NCBI RefSeq assembly: GCF_024171405.1
Contig: NZ_JALJZT010000002.1
Coordinates: 496,001-560,000, forward strand
Direction of reading: 5' to 3'
DNA: 64,000 nucleotides
Origin: Qipengyuania citrea
GTDB taxonomy: Bacteria; Pseudomonadota; Alphaproteobacteria; Sphingomonadales; Sphingomonadaceae
The position numbers were made by a program, and so were the translations under genes. This document shows positions 1 to 60,824 of this stretch, piece by piece (positions within the stretch are counted from its first letter, which is position 1; every line of letters starts with the position of its first letter). The notes below the pieces were generated by a model. It saw only the letters and a list, made by a program, of their open reading frames with translations. It searched no databases and was not told where the DNA came from.

Positions 1-363
1 GACAATCTGATCGTCCAGAAGATCGAGGGCAATCCCAACGCCGTCGGCATCTTCGGCTACAGCTATCTCGAGGAAAACGCCGACAAGGTGCAGGGTCTCG
101 ACATGAACGGCGTTGCGCCGACTTACGAGAACATCGCCAATTTCGACTATCCCGGTGCGCGGCCGCTTTATGTCTACGCGAAGAAGGCGCATCTCGATGC
201 GATCCCCGGCCTGCGCGAATACCTGCTCCAGTGGACCAAGATGTGGGCCAAGGACGGGGAACTGGCCAAGATCGGCCTTGTCGCATCGCCCGAGGACGTT
301 ATGGCGACCAACCTGAAGGCAGCCACCGAGTACACCACGCTCGACGGCGCGCAGCTCAAGTAA
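1..363 (+). CDS. pstS: Phosphate ABC transporter substrate-binding protein PstS, C-terminal part
   Basis: The open frame runs in from the left edge and stops at TAA 361-363, leaving about 120 C-terminal residues. The text NAVGIFGYSYLEEN followed by GARPLYVYAKKAHL matches the hinge and C-terminal lobe of periplasmic phosphate-binding proteins of the PstS/SphX type. It captures phosphate in the periplasm and delivers it to PstCA. It lies 16 bp upstream of pstC on the same strand, which settles the assignment. The N-terminus, signal peptide and any Pho box lie outside the window. Confidence 0.9.
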   Translation, partial: DNLIVQKIEGNPNAVGIFGYSYLEENADKVQGLDMNGVAPTYENIANFDYPGARPLYVYAKKAHLDAIPGLREYLLQWTKMWAKDGELAKIGLVASPEDVMATNLKAATEYTTLDGAQLK

Positions 364-379
364 GGTCTGAAAGCAACCC

Positions 380-1765
380 ATGTCGCCAGCTATCCTGCTT
401 CTCCTGGCCCTGGGGCTCGGGCTCGCCGGATGGCTGGCGGCCCGTGCCCGGGCGTGGGCATTCCGGCGTGACAGCGCCGATGGCCGCTTGCCCAGCCTGC
501 CGGTCTATCACGCGTGGTACGTCGCGCTGTGGGTCATCCTGCCCATGGTCGCCTTCATCGCGCTGTGGAGTGCAATTGCCCCGGGTCTCGTGACGCAGCA
601 GGTGCTCGCCAGCCCGGCGGCGGCCGAACTGCCCGCCTTCGGGTTCCAGCGCCAGACCATCCTCAACGAAGCCCGCGCGGTCGCGACTGGGGCCGCGTCC
701 GCAGTGTTCAATCCGCAGGCCTCGGGCCTTGTCGAACCCTATCGCGAGGCCTTGTTCTACTACAACACGATCGGCATCGTCGTGGCGCTGCTGATCGCCT
801 TTCTTGCCGGTACGTACGCCTTCCTCAAGCTGCGGCCCGATTTCGCCGCGCGCAGCAAGGTGGAGCGGATCGTCATGGCGATCCTGCTGGGTGCCTCGCT
901 GGTCGCGATCCTGACGACCATCGGCATCCTCGCCAGCCTGGTGTTCGAAACCGTGCGGTTCTTCGGCATGGTCTCGCCCATCGACTTCCTGTTCGGCACG
1001 CATTGGGGGCCCGACCCGATGGCCAATCCCGACAATCCGGACGGCAGCCGCTACGGCGCTGTCCCGCTGTTCTGGGGGACGCTATTCATCGGGGCGATCA
1101 TCGCCATGATCGTCGCGATTCCGCTCGGCCTGATGAGCGCGATCTATCTCACGCAATATGCCGACCCGGCCCTGCGGCGCTGGGTCAAGCCCGCGCTGGA
1201 GATCCTCGCGGGTGTGCCGACGGTGGTCTATGGCTATTTCGCGGCGCTGACGATCGCCCCGGCGATCCGCGACCTTGCGATGAGCCTCGGGGTCTCGAAC
1301 CCGTCGAGCGAAAGCGCGCTGGCCGCAGGCCTCGTGATGGGCGTCATGATCATTCCCTTCGTGTCCTCGATGGCCGACGATTCGATTGCCGCAGTGCCCA
1401 GCGCCATGCGCGACGGCAGCCTGGCGATGGGCGCCACGCGTTCGGAAACGATCAAGCGCGTGATGATCCCTGCCGCGCTGCCCGGTATCGTTGCCGGGAT
1501 CATGCTGGCGATCAGCCGCGCCATCGGCGAGACGATGATCGTGGTGATGGCTGCATCGACCGCCGCCAATCTCTCCGCCAATCCACTCGAATCGATGACC
1601 ACGGTGACTGTCCAGATCGTCGCCATGCTGACCGGCGAAGGCAGTTTCGACCATCCCGCCACGCTCAGCGCCTTTGCCCTGGGCTTCGTCCTGTTCATGG
1701 TGACACTGGGTCTGAACTTCGTCGCCCTGCGCGTCGTCAAAAGGTATCGCGAAGCTTATGAGTGA
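380..1765 (+). CDS. pstC: Phosphate ABC transporter permease PstC (long form)
   Basis: 461 residues, inner-membrane permease subunit of the high-affinity phosphate importer. The permease domain occupies about residues 200-455, with the EAA-type loop (MRDGSLAMGATRSETIKRV, around 340-360) that docks PstB. It is about 150 residues longer than E. coli PstC. The extra N-terminal part holds three more hydrophobic segments (about 5-23, 45-75 and 125-150) and a soluble stretch. Such long forms are known in alphaproteobacteria. The 3' end overlaps pstA by 8 bp, indicating coupled translation. Confidence 0.94.
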   Translation: MSPAILLLLALGLGLAGWLAARARAWAFRRDSADGRLPSLPVYHAWYVALWVILPMVAFIALWSAIAPGLVTQQVLASPAAAELPAFGFQRQTILNEARAVATGAASAVFNPQASGLVEPYREALFYYNTIGIVVALLIAFLAGTYAFLKLRPDFAARSKVERIVMAILLGASLVAILTTIGILASLVFETVRFFGMVSPIDFLFGTHWGPDPMANPDNPDGSRYGAVPLFWGTLFIGAIIAMIVAIPLGLMSAIYLTQYADPALRRWVKPALEILAGVPTVVYGYFAALTIAPAIRDLAMSLGVSNPSSESALAAGLVMGVMIIPFVSSMADDSIAAVPSAMRDGSLAMGATRSETIKRVMIPAALPGIVAGIMLAISRAIGETMIVVMAASTAANLSANPLESMTTVTVQIVAMLTGEGSFDHPATLSAFALGFVLFMVTLGLNFVALRVVKRYREAYE

Positions 1766-3008
1766 GCGCATCGCCCCCACGCGCACGCCCGAATTCGAAG
1801 CGCGGCTGAAAAAACGCTACGCCTCGGAAAAGCGCTTCCGTGCGCTCGGCCTCGGCGCGATCGTGTTCTCGATTGCGGTGCTGGTCTTCCTGCTTGGAAC
1901 GATGACTTTCAACGGCATCGGCGGCTTTCAGCGCGTCGAGATGAAAGTCCCGATCGACTTCACGCAGGCCGGCATCGCCGCCAGTCCCGATACGATGGCG
2001 CAGCCGGGGGCTCTGGCTTCGCTCGAGGCGCAGGGCCTGCGCGATGTCCTGCAATATTTCGCAGCGGAAGAACTGGGCGAGGATGCCGCGGACGAACTCG
2101 GCGCGCAGGCCTGGCGCGATGTCGCCGCTGCGGTGATCGCCGATCCCGCACTGCTCCAGCGCAGCGAAAGCTTCTGGCTGCCCGCCTCGGCCGACCTCGC
2201 GTCGGGCTATGAAGGCGAAGGCTCTTCGGACATGCAGGCGCTCGCCATCGGCCTTTATGAGGACGGGCGACTGGCGAAGAACTTCGATCCGGGATTCCTT
2301 GGCCGATCGGATGCCACCAATCCGCAGCAGGCGGGTATCTGGGGCGCGCTGAAGGGCTCGCTGCTGACGATGGTCGTCACCCTGCTGCTGGCCTTCCCGA
2401 TCGGTGTCCTCGCGGCGCTGTATCTCGAGGAATACGCCCCCAAGAACCGCTGGACCGACCTGATCGAACTGTCGATCAACAATCTCGCTGCGGTCCCGTC
2501 GATCATTTTCGGCCTGCTGGGGCTCGCGGTGTTCCTGACGCTGTTCCCCAATCTGCGCTCCGCGCCGCTGATCGGCGGTATGACGCTGGCGCTGATGACC
2601 ATGCCCGTCATCGTCATCGCCGGGCGCAATGCGATCAAGGCGGTCCCGCCGAGCATTCGCGATGGCGCGCTGGCCATCGGCGCATCGCCCGTGCAGGTCG
2701 TGTTCCACCATGTCCTGCCTCTCGCGCTGCCCGGGATCCTGACCGGCACGATCATCGGCATGGCACGCGCGCTGGGCGAAACCGCCCCGCTGCTGATGAT
2801 CGGCATGCGCGCATTCGTCGCCACCCCGCCCGATGGCTTCACCTCGCCCGCGACCGTGCTGCCGATGCAGATCTTCCTGTGGTCGGACGAAATCGACCGC
2901 GGCTTCGTGGAACGCACCAGCGCGGCGATTATCGTGCTATTGCTGTTCCTGCTCGTGATGAACGGGCTCGCCATTTACCTGCGTAACAAATTCGAGAAAA
3001 CCTGGTGA
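1758..3008 (+). CDS. pstA: Phosphate ABC transporter permease PstA with N-terminal periplasmic insert
   Basis: 416 residues. One transmembrane segment near residues 35-55 is followed by a soluble region of about 130 residues (roughly 60-190), then five hydrophobic segments of the permease domain. The EAA loop is [20 protein letters not shown] at about 300-320. The insert corresponds in position to the DUF3333-type N-terminal domain of alphaproteobacterial PstA; I infer the family from position and length, not from a profile search. It overlaps pstC by 8 bp and pstB by 4 bp. Confidence 0.93.
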
Positions 3009-3793
3009 CCGTAGTCCACGACAACCTCGAGAAGACCGAAGCCAAGATGAGCGCCAATGCCGTCTCCGTGTTCTACGGCGACAAGAAGGCGATCGACGAG
3101 GTTTCGATCGACATTCCGACCGAATATGTGACCGCCTTCATCGGTCCCTCGGGCTGCGGCAAATCGACTTTCCTGCGCACGCTCAACCGCATGAACGACA
3201 CCATTCCTTCGGCGCGCGTCGAAGGGTGCATCGAACTCGACGGGGAAGACATCTATTCCTCGGGCATGGATGTCGTCCAGTTGCGCGCCCGCGTCGGGAT
3301 GGTGTTCCAGAAGCCCAACCCCTTCCCCAAGTCGATCTACGACAACATCGCCTATGGTCCGAAGATCCACGGTCTTGCCGAGGGCAAGGACGAGCTCGAC
3401 GCGATCGTCGAGAAGTCGCTCAAGCGCGCGGGGCTGTGGGAAGAGGTGAAGGACCGGTTGCTGGACAGCGGCACCGCGCTGTCGGGCGGCCAGCAGCAGC
3501 GCCTGTGCATCGCCCGCGCCATCGCGGTCGATCCCGAGGTTATCCTGATGGACGAGCCCTGCTCCGCACTCGATCCGATCGCCACTGCGAAAATCGAGGA
3601 ACTGATTGCCGAACTCAATGGTCGTTACGCCATTGTGATCGTTACCCATTCCATGCAGCAGGCTGCCCGCGTCAGCCAACGTACCGCCTTTTTCCATCTC
3701 GGGAAAATGGTAGAGTATGGCCGTACCTCAGACATTTTCACCAACCCGCACGAGCAGCGGACCCAGGATTACATCACGGGGCGTTACGGATAA
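3005..3793 (+). CDS. pstB: Phosphate ABC transporter ATPase PstB
   Basis: 262 residues. It carries Walker [10 protein letters not shown] (about 47-55), the ABC signature LSGGQQQRL (about 158-166), Walker B VILMDEP (about 178-184) and the switch histidine in IVTHSMQQA. It hydrolyses ATP to drive PstCA. The GTG start lies in the last codons of pstA. The phoU start follows 4 bp after the stop. In the Pho system PstB with PhoU also transmits phosphate status to the PhoR kinase, but no phoR is visible in this window. Confidence 0.97.
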
Positions 3794-3797
3794 GGCC

Positions 3798-4478
3798 ATG
3801 AATCCGATGCAAGAACATACCGTTAAGGCCTTCGATGAGGACATCACCCGTCTGCGCGGGCTGATCGCCGAGATGGGCGGGCTGGCGGAAGCCGCCATCG
3901 CCCAGTCGCTCGAGGCGCTCGTCAAAGGCGACGACGAACTGGCCGACAAGGTCGTCAAGGGCGACAAGAAAATCGACGCGCTCGAGAGCGAGATCGACAA
4001 GCTCTCCGTGCGCATCATCGCACTGCGCGCCCCGATGGCCGACGACCTGCGCGAAGTGATCGCCGCGCTCAAGATCGCCGGCGTGGTCGAGCGGATCGGC
4101 GACTATTCGAAGAACATCGCCAAGGCGAGCAAGGAAATCGGCGGCAATCGCAAGCAGTTCGAACCGCTGACCCTGCTGCCCGCCATGGCCGAAGTCGCCG
4201 CGGAAATGGTCCATGACGTGCTGACCGCCTATGCCGCGCGCGACGCCGAACTGGCGCGCGAAGTGATCGCTGCCGACGAAAAGGTCGATGCCTTCTACAA
4301 TTCGATCTTCCGCAACCTCGTCAGCCACATGGTCGAGAACCCCTCGACCATCTCGAGCGCGGCACAGATGCTGTTCGTGGCGCGTAATCTCGAACGCATC
4401 GGCGACCATGCCACCAATGTGGCCGAAATGGTGCACTTTGCGGCTACCGGAAACTATCCTCTCGACGAGGACGGTTGA
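3798..4478 (+). CDS. phoU: Phosphate signalling complex protein PhoU
   Basis: 226 residues from ATG 3798 (MNPMQEHTVKAFDEDITRL). An in-frame upstream start exists but lies inside pstB. Two three-helix PhoU repeats are visible, each with the ERIGDYSKNIAKA / ERIGDHATNVAEM signature that binds metal. It acts as the negative regulator linking the Pst transporter to PhoR/PhoB. It sits between pstB and phoB in the usual order. Confidence 0.95.
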   Translation: MNPMQEHTVKAFDEDITRLRGLIAEMGGLAEAAIAQSLEALVKGDDELADKVVKGDKKIDALESEIDKLSVRIIALRAPMADDLREVIAALKIAGVVERIGDYSKNIAKASKEIGGNRKQFEPLTLLPAMAEVAAEMVHDVLTAYAARDAELAREVIAADEKVDAFYNSIFRNLVSHMVENPSTISSAAQMLFVARNLERIGDHATNVAEMVHFAATGNYPLDEDG

Positions 4479-49375: not shown

Positions 49376-49831
49376 CTATCTCCTGGTGATCTTCCGGATG
49401 ATGCCGTTGAAGCTAAGCACCGGCTTGCCATCGGCGCGGATCATGCCGACGACATAGATCGTCTTGCCGCCCGCGCGCACGACTTCGCCGCGCGCCTCGA
49501 TCAGCTGGCCGACGCTGGCCGGATCGAGGAAATCGCCCGCGAGATGCATGGTGACGCCATGCGATCCGGCGAGTTCGTCGGTCGCGATGGTGAAGATCGC
49601 GCTGTCGGCGAAGGTCATCATGCAACCGCCATGCATGAAGCCCGCGCCGTTCATGTGGCGCTCCTCCGCGCGGAAAGCGGCGACCATGCTGCCGTCGTCA
49701 TCGCGCCGTTCGTAGAACGGGCCCGCGCGCTGCTCGAAAGCATCGCTCTGCCAGGTCGACCAGCCGGACCATTCGCCCTCGGTGACGGGTACGAGCCCGC
49801 CGCTCGCTCCTACTGCTTCGTTCTCGCTCAT
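49376..49831 (-). CDS. PaaI-type hotdog thioesterase
   Basis: 151 residues from ATG 49831, overlapping the pgk stop (ATGA). Hotdog-fold signature HMNGAGFMHGGCMMTFADSAIFTIA, with HGG and D typical of the PaaI family, and LAGDFLDPASVGQLIEARGEV. It hydrolyses an acyl-CoA thioester; substrate unknown. Translational coupling with pgk is unusual in function and probably reflects operon accretion. Confidence 0.9.
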   Translation of the reverse strand: MSENEAVGASGGLVPVTEGEWSGWSTWQSDAFEQRAGPFYERRDDDGSMVAAFRAEERHMNGAGFMHGGCMMTFADSAIFTIATDELAGSHGVTMHLAGDFLDPASVGQLIEARGEVVRAGGKTIYVVGMIRADGKPVLSFNGIIRKITRR

Positions 49832-51027
49832 GCGGTCAGCGCCGCCACGCCGGGAAGCGGCTTGCCTTCCATCCATTCGAGAAAGGCGCCGCCTGCGGTC
49901 GATACGAAGGTGAACTCGTCCTTCACCCCGGCATGCGCGAGCGCAGCGACCGTATCTCCCCCGCCCGCGACCGAGATCAACGAACCGTCCAGTGTCAGCG
50001 CCGCGGCGGTCCGCGCCAGCGCGACGGTGGCGGTGTCGAAAGGTTCGGTCTCGAATGCGCCCATCGGGCCGTTCCACACCAGCGTGCGGCAGGTCTTGAG
50101 CACGTCGGCCAGCGCCTCGGTCGCCAGCGGGCCGACATCGAGGATCATCTCGTCATGCGCGACTTCATGGACGTTGCAGGTACGCAGGGACGCGGGGTTG
50201 GCGGCAAATTCCTTCGCCACTACGACATCATAGGGCAGGTGAACCGTGCAGCCCGCATGCGCGGCTTCGTCGATGATACGATTGGCGGTGTCGGTGAGCT
50301 CGTGTTCGCACAGCGACTTGCCGACATCGACACCCTTGGCGGCGAGAAAGGTGTTGGCCATCCCGCCGCCGATGATCAGGTGCTGCACCTTGCCGACCAG
50401 ATTGGTCAGCACGTCGAGCTTGGTCGAGACCTTGGCCCCGCCGACGACCGCGGCGACGGGGGCTTCGGGATTACCCAGCGCAGCGTCGAGCGCCTTCAGT
50501 TCGGCTTCCATCGCGCGGCCCGCATAGGCCGGGAGATGGTGCGCCAGCCCCTCGGTGCTGGCATGCGCGCGGTGCGCCGCGCTGAACGCGTCGTTGACGT
50601 AGAAGTCGCCATGCGCGGCCATACCACGCGCGAATTCGGGATCGTTGGCTTCCTCGCCCGGCCAGAAACGGACATTGTCGAGTAGGCCGATATCGCCATT
50701 GGCAAGGATGCCGATCGACTGTTCGACCACGGGGCCCATGACCTCGGGGATGAACATGATCTCCTTGTCCAGCACCTTCTCGACATCGCCCTGCACGAAG
50801 CTCGTGCTCATGGTCGAATAGCGCTTGCCCTTGGGACGCCCGTAATGCGCGAGCAACAGGACCTTGGCACCCTTTTCGGCGAGTTCGAGGATGGTCGGCT
50901 TGACCGCCTCGACGCGCGAGACGTCGGTGGCCGAACCATCCTTCATCGGCAGGTTGAGATCGACGCGCACCAGCGCGATCTTGCCGGTGATGTCACCGAG
51001 ATCGTCCAGGGTCTTGAAGCTGCTCAT
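49828..51027 (-). CDS. pgk: Phosphoglycerate kinase
   Basis: 399 residues, standard length. RVDLNLPMKDG, LLAHYGRPKGKR, DNVRFWPGEEANDPEFAR, VAAVVGGAKVSTKLDVL and WNGPMGAFETEPFDTAT are the substrate and nucleotide sites. It makes ATP from 1,3-bisphosphoglycerate. It starts 30 bp after gap. Confidence 0.97.
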   Translation of the reverse strand: MSSFKTLDDLGDITGKIALVRVDLNLPMKDGSATDVSRVEAVKPTILELAEKGAKVLLLAHYGRPKGKRYSTMSTSFVQGDVEKVLDKEIMFIPEVMGPVVEQSIGILANGDIGLLDNVRFWPGEEANDPEFARGMAAHGDFYVNDAFSAAHRAHASTEGLAHHLPAYAGRAMEAELKALDAALGNPEAPVAAVVGGAKVSTKLDVLTNLVGKVQHLIIGGGMANTFLAAKGVDVGKSLCEHELTDTANRIIDEAAHAGCTVHLPYDVVVAKEFAANPASLRTCNVHEVAHDEMILDVGPLATEALADVLKTCRTLVWNGPMGAFETEPFDTATVALARTAAALTLDGSLISVAGGGDTVAALAHAGVKDEFTFVSTAGGAFLEWMEGKPLPGVAALTA

Positions 51028-51057
51028 TGGTCGGGCGTCCTTTGGCGGAACTTGGCG

Positions 51058-52065
51058 TTAGAGGAACTTCGCCATCACGCCGGCGGTGTCGATCATGCGG
51101 TTCGAAAAGCCCCATTCATTGTCGTACCAGCTGACGACGCGGGCAAGCTTGCCTTCCATCACGCTGGTTTCGAGGCTGTCGATGGTCGAGCTGGCCGGAT
51201 AGTGGTTGAAGTCGCTGCTGACGAGCGGCTGGTCGGTATAGTCGAGCACGCCCTTCATCTTGCCTTCGGCGGCTTCCTTGAGCGCGCCGTTCAATTCTTC
51301 GACGCTGGTGTCGCGGCCGGGGGTGAAGACGAGATCGACGAGGCTGACATTGGGCGTCGGCACGCGCACGCTCGAACCGTCGAGCTTGCCCGCCAGTTCG
51401 GGCAGGACGAGGCCGACCGCGCGCGCCGCGCCGGTGGTTGTCGGGATCATGTTCTGCGCGCCGCCGCGCGCCCGGCGCATGTCGCTATGCATCTGGTCGA
51501 GCATGCGCTGGTCGTTGGTGTAGCTGTGGATCGTGGTCATGAACCCGCGCTCGATGCCGACGGTGTCGTGCAGCACCTTCGCCATCGGCGAGAGGCAGTT
51601 GGTGGTGCAGCTGGCGTTCGAGACGATCACGTCCTCGGCGCTGAGCGTTTCGTGGTTCACACCGTAGACGATCGTGGCCGAAACGTTCTTGGCCGGGGCC
51701 GAGATCAGCACGCGCTTGGCGCCCGCCTTGAGATGCGGTTCGGCCGCTTCGTGGCTCTGAAAGAAGCCGGTGCATTCGAGGACGATGTCGACGCCCTGGT
51801 CGCCATGCGGCAGGTCGCCCGGATCGCGCTCGCTGGTGACCGCGATCGACTTGCCGTTGACGATGATAGCCTTGTCGCCGACCTCGACCGTGCCGGGGAA
51901 ACGGCCATGCGTGCTGTCATACTGGAACAGCAGCGCATTCGACTTGGTGTCGGCCAGGTCGTTGATGCTGACGAGTTCGAGATCGTGATCGCCACGCTCG
52001 AGAATGGCGCGCGCCACGAGGCGGCCGATACGTCCAAAACCGTTGATTGCAACCTTCGTCGCCAT
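51058..52065 (-). CDS. gap: Type I glyceraldehyde-3-phosphate dehydrogenase
   Basis: 335 residues. NAD site [12 protein letters not shown], catalytic C153 in [11 protein letters not shown] with its His partner in IHSYTNDQ. It converts glyceraldehyde 3-phosphate to 1,3-bisphosphoglycerate. 15 bp after tkt and followed by pgk: a glycolytic operon. Confidence 0.97.
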
Positions 52066-52080
52066 TGCAAAAACTCCTGC

Positions 52081-54114
52081 TTAACCGTTCAGTTTGTTCA
52101 TGATTTGCGGAACGATGGCGTCCGCAGTGAAGCCGAATTTCTCGAACAGATCACCCGCTGGCGCGCTAGCGCCGAAGCGGTCGATGCCGATCCGCAGACC
52201 CTTGGTCATCGTGTAGCGATCCCAGCCGAATGTCGTCCCCGCCTCGATGCTGACGCGAAGCGTTTCGTCGGGCGAAACATCGGGAAGCAGGTCTGCCTTG
52301 TAGGCATCGTCCTGCTCGTCGAACAGCTGGGTGCAGACCATCGAGACGACGTCCGCGCCGATGCCCGCCTTTTCCAGTTCGGCGGCGCATTCGGTCGCCA
52401 GGCTGACTTCCGATCCGGTCGCGATCAGGATGACCCGGCGCGGCGATTCAGCGGCCTTGAGACGATAGGCCCCGCGTCCGCTGAGGTTCTCCGCAGCCGC
52501 CTCGGTGCGCAGCTGCGGCAGCCCTTGGCGGGTCAGCGCAAGAACCGTCGGGCGGTCCTTCTCGCGCAGCGCGATGTCCCAGCATTCGGCGGTTTCGACC
52601 GTGTCTGCGGGGCGCATGACCAGCAGGTTCGGGATCATCCGCAGCGACTGGATGTGTTCGATCGGCTGGTGCGTCGGCCCGTCTTCACACTGGATGTGTT
52701 CGATCGGCTGGTGCGTCGGCCCGTCTTCACCCAGCCCGATGCTGTCATGCGTCATGACATAAACCACGCGGGCCTGCTGCAGCGCGGACAGGCGGATCGC
52801 GGCGCGGCAATAGTCGGTGAACACCAGGAAGGTGCCGCCATAGGGGATCACACCGCCATGCAGCGCCATGCCGTTCATCGCCGCGGCCATGCCGAATTCG
52901 CGAATGCCGTAATAGATATAGCGTCCGCTGCGGTCGTCGGCGGTGAACGGGCCGACGCCCCCCGCCTTGGTGTTGTTGGACCCGGTCAGGTCGGCGCTGC
53001 CGCCGATCGTATCGGGCAGGTTGGCGTTGATTTCGCCCAGCGTCATCTCGCTCGCCTTGCGCGTCGCGACCTTCTGCGGTTCGTCGATCAGCGACTGGAT
53101 ATAAGTGTCCAGGCTGAAGTTCTCGGGAAGATCGCCCGCCATCCGGCGTTCGAATTCGGCCTTGTCGCCATGCGCCTCGAGCCGGTTGCGCCATTCGGCC
53201 CGCGCCGCCGAACCACGCTCGGCCGTCCCGCGCCAGTCGGACAGCACCTGTTCGGGGATTTCGAACGGCGCCGCCTCCCAGCCCAGCGCCTCGCGGACTG
53301 CAGCGATTTCATCGTCGCCCAGCGGTGCGCCGTGGGTGGCACTGGTGCCCTGCTTGTTGGGTGAGCCCTTGCCGATGACCGTCTTGCACGCGACCAGCGA
53401 GGGCCGTTCGTCGGCCACCGCTTCATCGAGCGCGCGGCGGATGTCGTCGAAGTCGTGCCCGTCGCAGCTGACGACATGCCAGCCGGTCGCTTCGTAGCGC
53501 GCCTTGATGTCTTCGCTGGTCGACAGGTCGGTGGTCCCGTCGATGGTGATGTTGTTGTCGTCCCACAGCACGTTCATGCGGCCGAGCTTGAGATGACCGG
53601 CAAGACCGATCGCTTCGTGGTTGATGCCTTCCATCAGGCAGCCGTCACCCGCGATTACCCAGGTGCGGTGGTCGACGAGGTCGTCGCCGAATCCCGCGTT
53701 GAGGTGCCGCTCGGCAATCGCCATGCCCACCGCCATCGCCAGACCCTGCCCAAGCGGGCCGGTGGTGCTTTCGACGCCGTCGAGCAGGAAGTTCTCCGGA
53801 TGTCCGGCGCAAGGGCTGCCAAGCTGGCGGAAATTGCGGATGTCCTCCATCGTCGGGGCGGCATAGCCCGACAGGTGGAGCAGGCTGTAGATCAGCATCG
53901 AGCCATGGCCCGCGCTGAGCACGAAGCGGTCGCGATCCGCCCAGTCGGGTGCGGCGGGGTCGTGCTTGAGATAGTCGCTCCAGAGCACGGTCGCGACATC
54001 GGCCATGCCCATCGGCATGCCGGGGTGCCCCGAATTCGCCGCCTGCACCGCATCCATCGAAAGTGCCCTGATGGCATTGGCCATCTGGACCATGCGAGCG
54101 GTGGCAAGACTCAT
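52081..54114 (-). CDS. tkt: Transketolase with an internal 14-residue tandem duplication
   Basis: 677 residues from ATG 54114. TPP-dependent transfer of two-carbon units in the pentose phosphate pathway. TPP-binding domain GDGCLMEGINHEAIGLAGHLKL, pyrimidine domain FLVFTDYCRAAIRL. The conserved HDSIGLGEDGPTHQP motif, whose Glu contacts the TPP ring, is immediately followed by a second copy CEDGPTHQPIEHIQ before SLRMIPN. Without the repeat the length would be the usual 663. The frame is intact. Effect on activity is unknown. First gene of tkt-gap-pgk. Confidence 0.95.
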   Translation of the reverse strand: MSLATARMVQMANAIRALSMDAVQAANSGHPGMPMGMADVATVLWSDYLKHDPAAPDWADRDRFVLSAGHGSMLIYSLLHLSGYAAPTMEDIRNFRQLGSPCAGHPENFLLDGVESTTGPLGQGLAMAVGMAIAERHLNAGFGDDLVDHRTWVIAGDGCLMEGINHEAIGLAGHLKLGRMNVLWDDNNITIDGTTDLSTSEDIKARYEATGWHVVSCDGHDFDDIRRALDEAVADERPSLVACKTVIGKGSPNKQGTSATHGAPLGDDEIAAVREALGWEAAPFEIPEQVLSDWRGTAERGSAARAEWRNRLEAHGDKAEFERRMAGDLPENFSLDTYIQSLIDEPQKVATRKASEMTLGEINANLPDTIGGSADLTGSNNTKAGGVGPFTADDRSGRYIYYGIREFGMAAAMNGMALHGGVIPYGGTFLVFTDYCRAAIRLSALQQARVVYVMTHDSIGLGEDGPTHQPIEHIQCEDGPTHQPIEHIQSLRMIPNLLVMRPADTVETAECWDIALREKDRPTVLALTRQGLPQLRTEAAAENLSGRGAYRLKAAESPRRVILIATGSEVSLATECAAELEKAGIGADVVSMVCTQLFDEQDDAYKADLLPDVSPDETLRVSIEAGTTFGWDRYTMTKGLRIGIDRFGASAPAGDLFEKFGFTADAIVPQIMNKLNG
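52647..52730. repeat. Perfect 2 x 42-bp tandem repeat in tkt
   Basis: 52647-52688 and 52689-52730 are identical over all 42 bp and adjoin with no gap. The unit is a multiple of three and duplicates residues EDGPTHQPIEHIQ plus one. No substitution separates the copies, so the event is recent, or it is an assembly artefact. Confidence 0.97.
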
Positions 54115-59762: not shown

Positions 59763-60824
59763 TCAGTCCTTGAGGATCTTGTCGATGGCCTCGCCGATGC
59801 GGATCGGACCGGGGAAATAGGCCCATTCGAGGCTGTGGGGATAGGGCGTGTCGAAGCCGGTCACGCGTTCGACCGGGGCTTCGAGATGATAGAAACAGCG
59901 CTCGGTCACCAGCGCGGAAAGCTCCGCCCCGAAACCGCTCGTCCGGGTCGCTTCGTGTACGATCAGGCAGCGCCCGGTGCGTTCGATCGAGGCTTCGATC
60001 GCCTCGATGTCAAGCGGGACCAGCGTACGCAGGTCGAGGATGTCGGCTTCGACGCCTTTTTCGCGGCATACCGCCTCGACCACATGGACCATCGTGCCAT
60101 AGGCGAGGACGGTCAGCCGGTCGCCTTCGGTGACCTGCCGCGCCTTGCCCAGCGGGATCTTGTAATAGCCTTCGGGCACTACGCTGGCGTCGAACTTCTT
60201 CCACGGCTGCACGGGCTTGTCGTAATAGCCCGAGAACGGACCGTTGTAGATGCGCTTGGGCTCGAAGAAGATGACCGGGTCGTTGTCCTCGATGCACGAG
60301 ATCAACAGCCCCTTGGCGTCATAGGGCGTGGCCGGGATCACCGTCTTGAGGCCCGAGACATGCGTAAAGATCGCCTCGGGGCTCTGGCTGTGCGTCTGTC
60401 CGCCGAAGATGCCCCCGCCAAATGGCGATCGGACGGTCATCGGTGCGATATATTCGCCCGCCGAGCGATAGCGCAGGCGCGCCGCCTCCGAGATCAGCTG
60501 GTCGAGGCCGGGGTAAATGTAATCGGCGAACTGGATCTCGGGCACCGGACGCAGGCCATAGGCGCCCATCCCCACCGCCACCGCGATGATCCCGCATTCG
60601 TTGATCGGCGTGTCGAACACGCGCGTCTTGCCGTATTTGTCCTGCAGCCCCGCGGTGCAGCGGAAGACGCCGCCGAAATAGCCGACGTCCTCGCCCATCA
60701 CCACGACATCGTCGTCGCGGCCCATCGACACGTCGAGCGCATCGTTGATCGCCTCGATCATGTTGAGGCGGCGTTCGCCGTCCTGCGTGCCTGCGGGCAT
60801 GTCCTTGGTCTGGGTCTCGCTCAT
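59763..60824 (-). CDS. bkdA2: 2-oxoisovalerate dehydrogenase E1 beta subunit
   Basis: 353 residues from ATG 60824, overlapping the E1a stop by 4 bp. MGEDVGYFGGVFRCTAGLQDKYG, VRSPFGGGIFGGQTHSQSPEAIFTHVSGLKTVIPATPYDAKGLL and LIVHEATRTSGFGAEL are typical of BCKDH and not of pyruvate dehydrogenase. It forms the alpha2-beta2 E1 with the upstream gene. Confidence 0.95.
   Translation of the reverse strand: MSETQTKDMPAGTQDGERRLNMIEAINDALDVSMGRDDDVVVMGEDVGYFGGVFRCTAGLQDKYGKTRVFDTPINECGIIAVAVGMGAYGLRPVPEIQFADYIYPGLDQLISEAARLRYRSAGEYIAPMTVRSPFGGGIFGGQTHSQSPEAIFTHVSGLKTVIPATPYDAKGLLISCIEDNDPVIFFEPKRIYNGPFSGYYDKPVQPWKKFDASVVPEGYYKIPLGKARQVTEGDRLTVLAYGTMVHVVEAVCREKGVEADILDLRTLVPLDIEAIEASIERTGRCLIVHEATRTSGFGAELSALVTERCFYHLEAPVERVTGFDTPYPHSLEWAYFPGPIRIGEAIDKILKD

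Follow-up and report, generated by a model that had tools for sequence, protein, structure and literature searches.

An exact 42-bp tandem duplication at the active-site loop of the only transketolase gene in a Qipengyuania citrea genome assembly

Results and Discussion

The transketolase gene (tkt) in the genome assembly of Qipengyuania citrea (GCF_024171405.1) carries an exact 42-bp tandem duplication, which is in frame and doubles part of an active-site loop of the enzyme. We estimate at roughly 0.57 the probability that this is a real mutation private to the strain, which would have arisen in its only tkt gene after the split from the same-species genome G023, without homology at its ends, and which probably reduces the activity of the enzyme. 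In kind the duplication is ordinary; the best reading is a small mutation private to the strain, or else an assembly error, and not a switch or a new system.

Position and reading frame of the repeat

The window analysed here is a stretch of 64,000 nucleotides (contig 2, 496001-560000) from a genome of 3.2 Mb in 3 contigs. A tandem-repeat scan of the window returned four arrays, headed by the tkt repeat with a score of 168 vs 81 for the next (period 42, 2.0 copies, 100% identity between the copies). The chance of an exact 42-bp tandem repeat in random sequence of ~62% G+C is ~5e-25 per site, and the 84-bp repeat matches a single place in the genome. The tkt frame runs through both copies with no internal stop (Table 1); its ATG start was picked by similarity to relatives, and the mechanical ORF list begins upstream with a TTG. 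The unit begins at the second base of a codon and the 14 extra residues consist of EDGPTHQPIEHIQ plus a junction Cys, the protein reading EDGPTHQPIEHIQ-Cys-EDGPTHQPIEHIQ at residues 463-475, 476 and 477-489. An earlier note on this DNA had described a perfect in-frame 42-bp duplication in the active-site motif and a protein of 677 residues against an expected 663. The repeat scan and the translation bear out the former, and the latter agrees with the orthologues L002-L008, which are 1992 nt long including the stop codon.

Table 1. Coordinates of the transketolase gene, its repeat and two further exact duplications of the same assembly (positions in the window unless a contig is named)
Feature	Position	Strand	Remarks
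tkt, transketolase, 677 aa	52081..54114	(-)	translation; transketolases are the best solved-structure matches; one PF00456 match genome-wide
42-bp unit, copy 1 (5' copy in gene order)	52689..52730	(-)	preceded by the native THDSIGLG stretch
42-bp unit, copy 2 (3' copy in gene order)	52647..52688	(-)	followed by the native SLRMIPN stretch
New junction codon TGT (Cys476)	52687..52689	(-)	straddles both copies
Glu406 codon (REFGM), equivalent of the Glu contacting N1' of TPP	52897..52899	(-)	coordinates derived from the residue number; outside the repeat
30-bp exact duplication, L181	contig 2, 1329442-1329501		in frame in a 737-aa ORF; GIDTAKTVVT twice
23-bp exact duplication, L167	contig 2, 1052942-1052987		intergenic

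The neighbours of tkt are ORFs at 51058-52065 and 49828-51027, which appear from their protein sequences to be gapdh-like and pgk-like, respectively. The opposite (+) strand holds an 839-aa antisense ORF (50845-53364), which spans gapdh and tkt and in which the 42-bp unit is in frame as well; this ORF is probably a by-product of GC-rich codon usage.

Active-site residues doubled by the repeat

The active site of transketolase sits between two subunits (PMC3352088). According to the same source, Glu441 of the Mycobacterium tuberculosis enzyme makes contact with N1' of the TPP ring, the residues of substrate recognition include His491 and Asp499, and His503 (His481 in yeast) bonds the pyrimidine ring; replacement of the yeast residue (His481Gln) raised the Km for xylulose 5-phosphate from 70 to 4080 uM. 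The spacing of the residues 441-491-499-503, as given there, is the same as that of residues 406-456-464-468 in the present protein, which identifies Glu406 in the REFGM motif as the TPP glutamate and places it outside the repeat. The view of the earlier note that the repeated segment contains this glutamate was thus mistaken. What the repeat doubles is EDGPTHQP, with the substrate Asp (Asp464 and Asp478) and the catalytic His (His468 and His482), whereas the leading Gly of GEDGPTH is kept before copy 1 only and copy 2 is preceded by Cys476.

Glu406, His456, Asp478 and His482 are invariant in a MAFFT alignment of 38 sequences (A1), which matches the relatives to copy 2 and leaves copy 1 opposite gaps. 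The whole GEDGPTHQP motif is invariant in an alignment of the 37 relatives alone.

Single transketolase gene

A search of the genome with the Tkt protein returned one match only, and the Transketolase_N profile (PF00456) likewise has its sole match in this gene (454.9 bits). The Transket_pyr profile (PF02779) matches tkt in two pieces of 142.8 and 59.8 bits, which overlap in the profile and are split by the insert, profile positions 116-128 being matched twice. The further Pyr-domain matches of the genome sit in frames of 980, 462, 666 and 498 aa, which from their length are presumably OGDH-, E1-beta- and DXS-like; the 498-aa frame gives the second PF02779 match of the window (60243-60767, minus strand). 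The search for a second tkt that the earlier note had proposed, made with the protein and with both profiles across the genome, thus found neither a second nor a split transketolase.

Across its full length the protein is homologous to the long bacterial transketolases (EC 2.2.1.1), with 690.5 bits to E. coli TktA (2r5n; also 1qgd). Judged by sequence, its domains and catalytic residues are the same as those of TktA, from which it differs by the 14 extra residues that double EDGPTHQPIEHIQ and by the split match to the Pyr-domain profile.

Distribution of the insert among relatives

A search of the genus Qipengyuania gave tkt matches in 60 of 60 genomes. Matches in 57 of the 59 genomes other than the source cover the site, and the insert is absent from all 57, the same-species G023 included; the two others (G038 and G052) are represented by fragments that leave it uncovered. 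The matches in the 57 genomes span at most 1998 bp, compared with 2031 bp in the source genome. For 29 of these genomes the locus was retrieved and the motif itself read, and the others were judged by span. Together with 80 loci from a wider search and the window's own locus, the 29 form a motif-read set of 110 loci, 30 of them from the genus search. The insert is present in the window's own locus alone and absent from 109 of 109 others (108 distinct loci, since L006 and L032 are identical here and have the same contig coordinates). The distance from HDSIG to PN is 39 in the window's locus vs 25 in 100 of the 110 loci; nine loci lack the PN match used for the measurement, yet print in the normal register. 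Normal spacing across this motif, which characterizes a standard active site and is unneeded for family membership, is therefore not seen in the present enzyme. The family-wide search, with matches in 391 of 397 genomes, found no span as long as 2031 bp other than the window's own among the matches listed, the longest of the others being 2010 bp.

Within the species, tkt has 57 differences from that of G023 over 1992 aligned bases, in 46 synonymous and 11 non-synonymous codons, besides the 42-bp gap. The best-scoring relative by tkt, G007, lacks the insert too. On these sequences, the insert is private to the source genome among those examined. An old lineage feature is ruled out by its absence from every relative readable at the site, which is the comparison that the earlier note had called for.

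The same data bear on the suggestion that slipped replication between one and two copies acts as a reversible on/off or tuning switch. Adjacent exact repeats of 42 bp can in principle recombine or slip. However, 42 is a multiple of 3, so that gain or loss of a unit never shifts the frame, and the two-copy gene and its one-copy orthologues are all open. In none of the 57 site-covering genus genomes (of 59) is the span sufficient for two copies, and the only other same-species genome returned by the genus search, G023, has one. Folding of the repeat DNA is also unremarkable against shuffles on either strand (z 0.62 and -0.73). A switch, which the earlier note had put forward, is accordingly the least probable of the explanations considered here, and we regard it as very remote.

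Several further features were seen in these comparisons. The genus member G002 has a second, divergent transketolase-like match (contig 17, 1013-3001; 46% identity). Between 50584, where the fetched locus stops, and ~54125 (L002 position ~3500), G007 and the window share ~97% identity; past that point, just upstream of the tkt start, the identity falls to ~75-82% in most pieces. The oxidoreductase of G007 is only 87% identical in protein to that of the source genome. From the sequence comparison, the ~97% block looks like a recombined block including gapdh and tkt. At window positions ~50823-51573, G023 is 100% identical over three consecutive 250-bp pieces, compared with ~97% over most other parts of the locus, and recent gene conversion is a possible reading of this tract.

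Predicted structure and consequences for the cell

The AlphaFold2 model of Tkt with the insert, built from a 38-row alignment, has a mean pLDDT of 86.3 and a pTM of 0.90, with pLDDT below 50 at residues 160-163 and 458-482. For a single-copy control (L032), the mean pLDDT is 88.3 and the pTM 0.90, and the loop is weak (below 50) at 458-463 only; both models are monomers without cofactor. Foldseek placed the Tkt model on solved transketolases with a best TM-score of 0.92, and the E. coli transketolase chains listed gave 0.91-0.92 (normalized by query length). The transketolase fold is thus predicted to survive, with the insert forming an additional loop of low confidence where the active site opens, the substrate Asp and the catalytic His being present twice in the protein. 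From the position of this low-confidence loop in the model, we conclude that activity is probably reduced. The models are of no use for deciding which copy serves as the active-site copy, because the native loop is also poorly predicted in L032; moreover, A1 put the relatives on copy 2 and so forced the answer.

A different reading is that the doubled Asp/His motif alters the substrate range or activity and has been selected. A precedent exists in the KPC beta-lactamases, where in-frame tandem duplications of 3-84 bp, found in 42 variants, include loop duplications tied to changed resistance (PMC12593533). The likeness, as far as that source goes, lies in an adjacent copy, of a length divisible by 3, within an enzyme gene. 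In contrast, the present gene encodes a housekeeping enzyme under no known selection, and its duplication is seen in a genome assembly. Moreover, the doubled motif is common to no relative examined, and a pLDDT below 50 over 458-482 does not point to an ordered new site (in the L032 control, 458-463 is weak as well). We therefore hold an adaptive change to be very unlikely.

E. coli without transketolase does not grow on pentose alone and does not synthesize erythrose-4-phosphate, according to PMC7669889. With a single tkt, a dead enzyme would likewise remove the transketolase route to erythrose-4-phosphate. E. coli tktA tktB mutants are reported to require aromatic amino acids and vitamin B6 (Zhao & Winkler 1994, cited in PMC7669889). 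Loss of transketolase leaves cells with a nutritional requirement but does not kill them on rich medium; a weakened Tkt would therefore be compatible with a cultured strain, possibly one maintained on such a medium. Should the duplication be real, the strain would offer a natural experiment on how much expansion an invariant active-site loop tolerates when the cell has no backup enzyme.

Junction, age and proposed origin of the duplication

The match run of the repeat equals its period of 42, which leaves 0 bp of microhomology at the junction; with exact adjacent copies and a junction overlap within 0-1 bp, the repeat has the form of a small blunt tandem duplication of the NHEJ type. The sole difference of the unit from G023 is a Gly codon, GGC in G023 and GGT here, at unit position 2 in both copies. 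At this codon, GGT is used by 3 of 30 genus loci and 10 of 110 loci overall, the window's own being counted in both, and a synonymous SNP preceding the duplication is therefore enough to explain the difference.

The earlier note had taken the identity of the copies as a mark of a very recent event, a reversible switch or an assembly error. For a duplication dating back to the split between the source genome and G023, the expected number of differences between the copies is 1.2, and the probability of seeing none is 0.30. Copy identity is thus no proof of youth and too weak for dating; it is the absence of the insert from G023 that, by sequence comparison, shows the duplication to be young.

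As a mutation, the duplication would have arisen after the strain split from its sister genome G023, with no part played by homology at its ends. By one route, a staggered break would have been filled in and then closed by Ku/LigD end-joining; by another, a strand switch during replication or a plain replication error without homology would have produced the second copy. The 42 KPC variants cited above, as a parallel of in-frame tandem duplication, count in favour of a real mutation. In principle the direct repeat could revert to a single unit by slippage. The Ku and LigD matches of the source genome are 1 kb from each other, and blunt end-joining is thereby possible. Of the 60 genus genomes, 33 have Ku, among them G023; its presence thus permits the end-joining route without singling it out and does not by itself explain the higher duplication count of the source genome described below. 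A DNA hairpin was rejected as the cause, since neither strand folds notably better than its shuffles.

In mouse cells, 60.9% of the mutagenic repair at breaks with 3' overhangs consisted of tandem duplications, compared with 11.7% without Ku80 (PMC8355091). Duplications at filled-in staggered breaks joined by NHEJ in mouse and human cells, as described in that source, resemble the present one in their size of tens of base pairs and the lack of junction microhomology, with Ku and LigD genes found here. Those events, however, followed induced breaks in mammalian cells, whereas here there is a footprint alone, in a bacterium. In the literature library searched, we found nothing linking LigD with tandem duplication, NHEJ and bacteria, nothing on short tandem duplications in bacteria with microhomology and slippage, and nothing on Qipengyuania with transketolase; among the matches listed for transketolase with tandem duplication, none concerned such a case, judged by title.

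Other exact duplications in the source genome

Exact tandem duplications were scanned in 1.2 Mb each of the source genome (C2:348001-1548000) and of G023 (C2:355001-1555000), the two samples having only partly the same gene content; the 13-bp cut-off for the unit was chosen after a first pass on 400 kb each. Units of at least 13 bp number three in the source genome (23, 30 and 42 bp) and one in G023 (15 bp), and units of at least 20 bp three vs none, whereas units of 9-12 bp are similarly frequent in both (48 and 58, respectively). The 23-, 30- and 42-bp duplications are all single-copy in G023.

The 30-bp duplication lies in an apparently DedA/pyridine-nucleotide oxidoreductase-like ORF. All 8 orthologues in which its site is readable lack the duplication; in the 3 remaining ones of the 11 other full-length orthologues, the span or frame does not contain it. 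The 23-bp duplication, compared with G023 only, is flanked by two consecutive minus-strand frames; it occupies the gap that separates the stop of the first from the start of the second, and has a small gene starting MSHHFEIYKDKAGEFRARF downstream.

An excess of duplications in one assembly could be read either as real events or as an assembly-specific fault. The latter is the most serious alternative to a real mutation: the ends of overlapping contigs or reads would have been joined unmerged during assembly or polishing, and the living strain would have a normal 663-aa transketolase. Exact copies without microhomology are what an unmerged overlap would be expected to yield, and the same assembly contains two more exact private duplications, compared with none of at least 20 bp in the G023 sample. 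The duplicated loop is invariant elsewhere, and no other examined transketolase has an insert there, which argues that the insert is harmful and so speaks against a real duplication. The 42-bp and the 30-bp units also both carry a boundary base that differs from G023 in both copies (in the 30-bp unit, the last base on the gene strand); a synonymous SNP that preceded the duplication would account for either one, though not for their coincidence.

Against an artefact stand the quality of the assembly (3 contigs, completeness 100, contig 2 of 2.89 Mb) and the small number of cases, only three within 1.2 Mb. Both coding duplications are multiples of 3 and in frame, and the one that is not a multiple of 3 is intergenic. 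If artefacts were frame-blind and ~10% of the genome noncoding, all three would be harmless with a probability of ~0.06, which weakly favours real events filtered by selection over misassembly, in an argument that comprises three cases only and a size cut-off fixed after the first pass. On balance we consider an assembly or polishing artefact less likely than a real mutation, although a weighty alternative. If it holds, the predicted Tkt has a false 14-residue insert and the 23- and 30-bp duplications of the same assembly would be suspect too.

If the tkt duplication is a real mutation, as we prefer to think, the 23- and 30-bp cases together with it hint at a mutation process that produces small blunt tandem duplications in a bacterium with Ku and LigD. 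A further-reaching version, in which the strain lives on a working Tkt with a doubled substrate-binding loop, a duplication tolerated in a motif that is invariant elsewhere, and its genome accumulates blunt duplications via Ku/LigD end-joining, appears to us improbable.

The 109 other loci (745 kb, one pair overlapping) contain three exact tandem duplications with units of at least 13 bp (15, 16 and 253 bp), one of them of at least 20 bp. The longest is an exact 253-bp duplication at position 616 of L040, from contig NODE_6 of Croceicoccus hydrothermalis strain JLT1.
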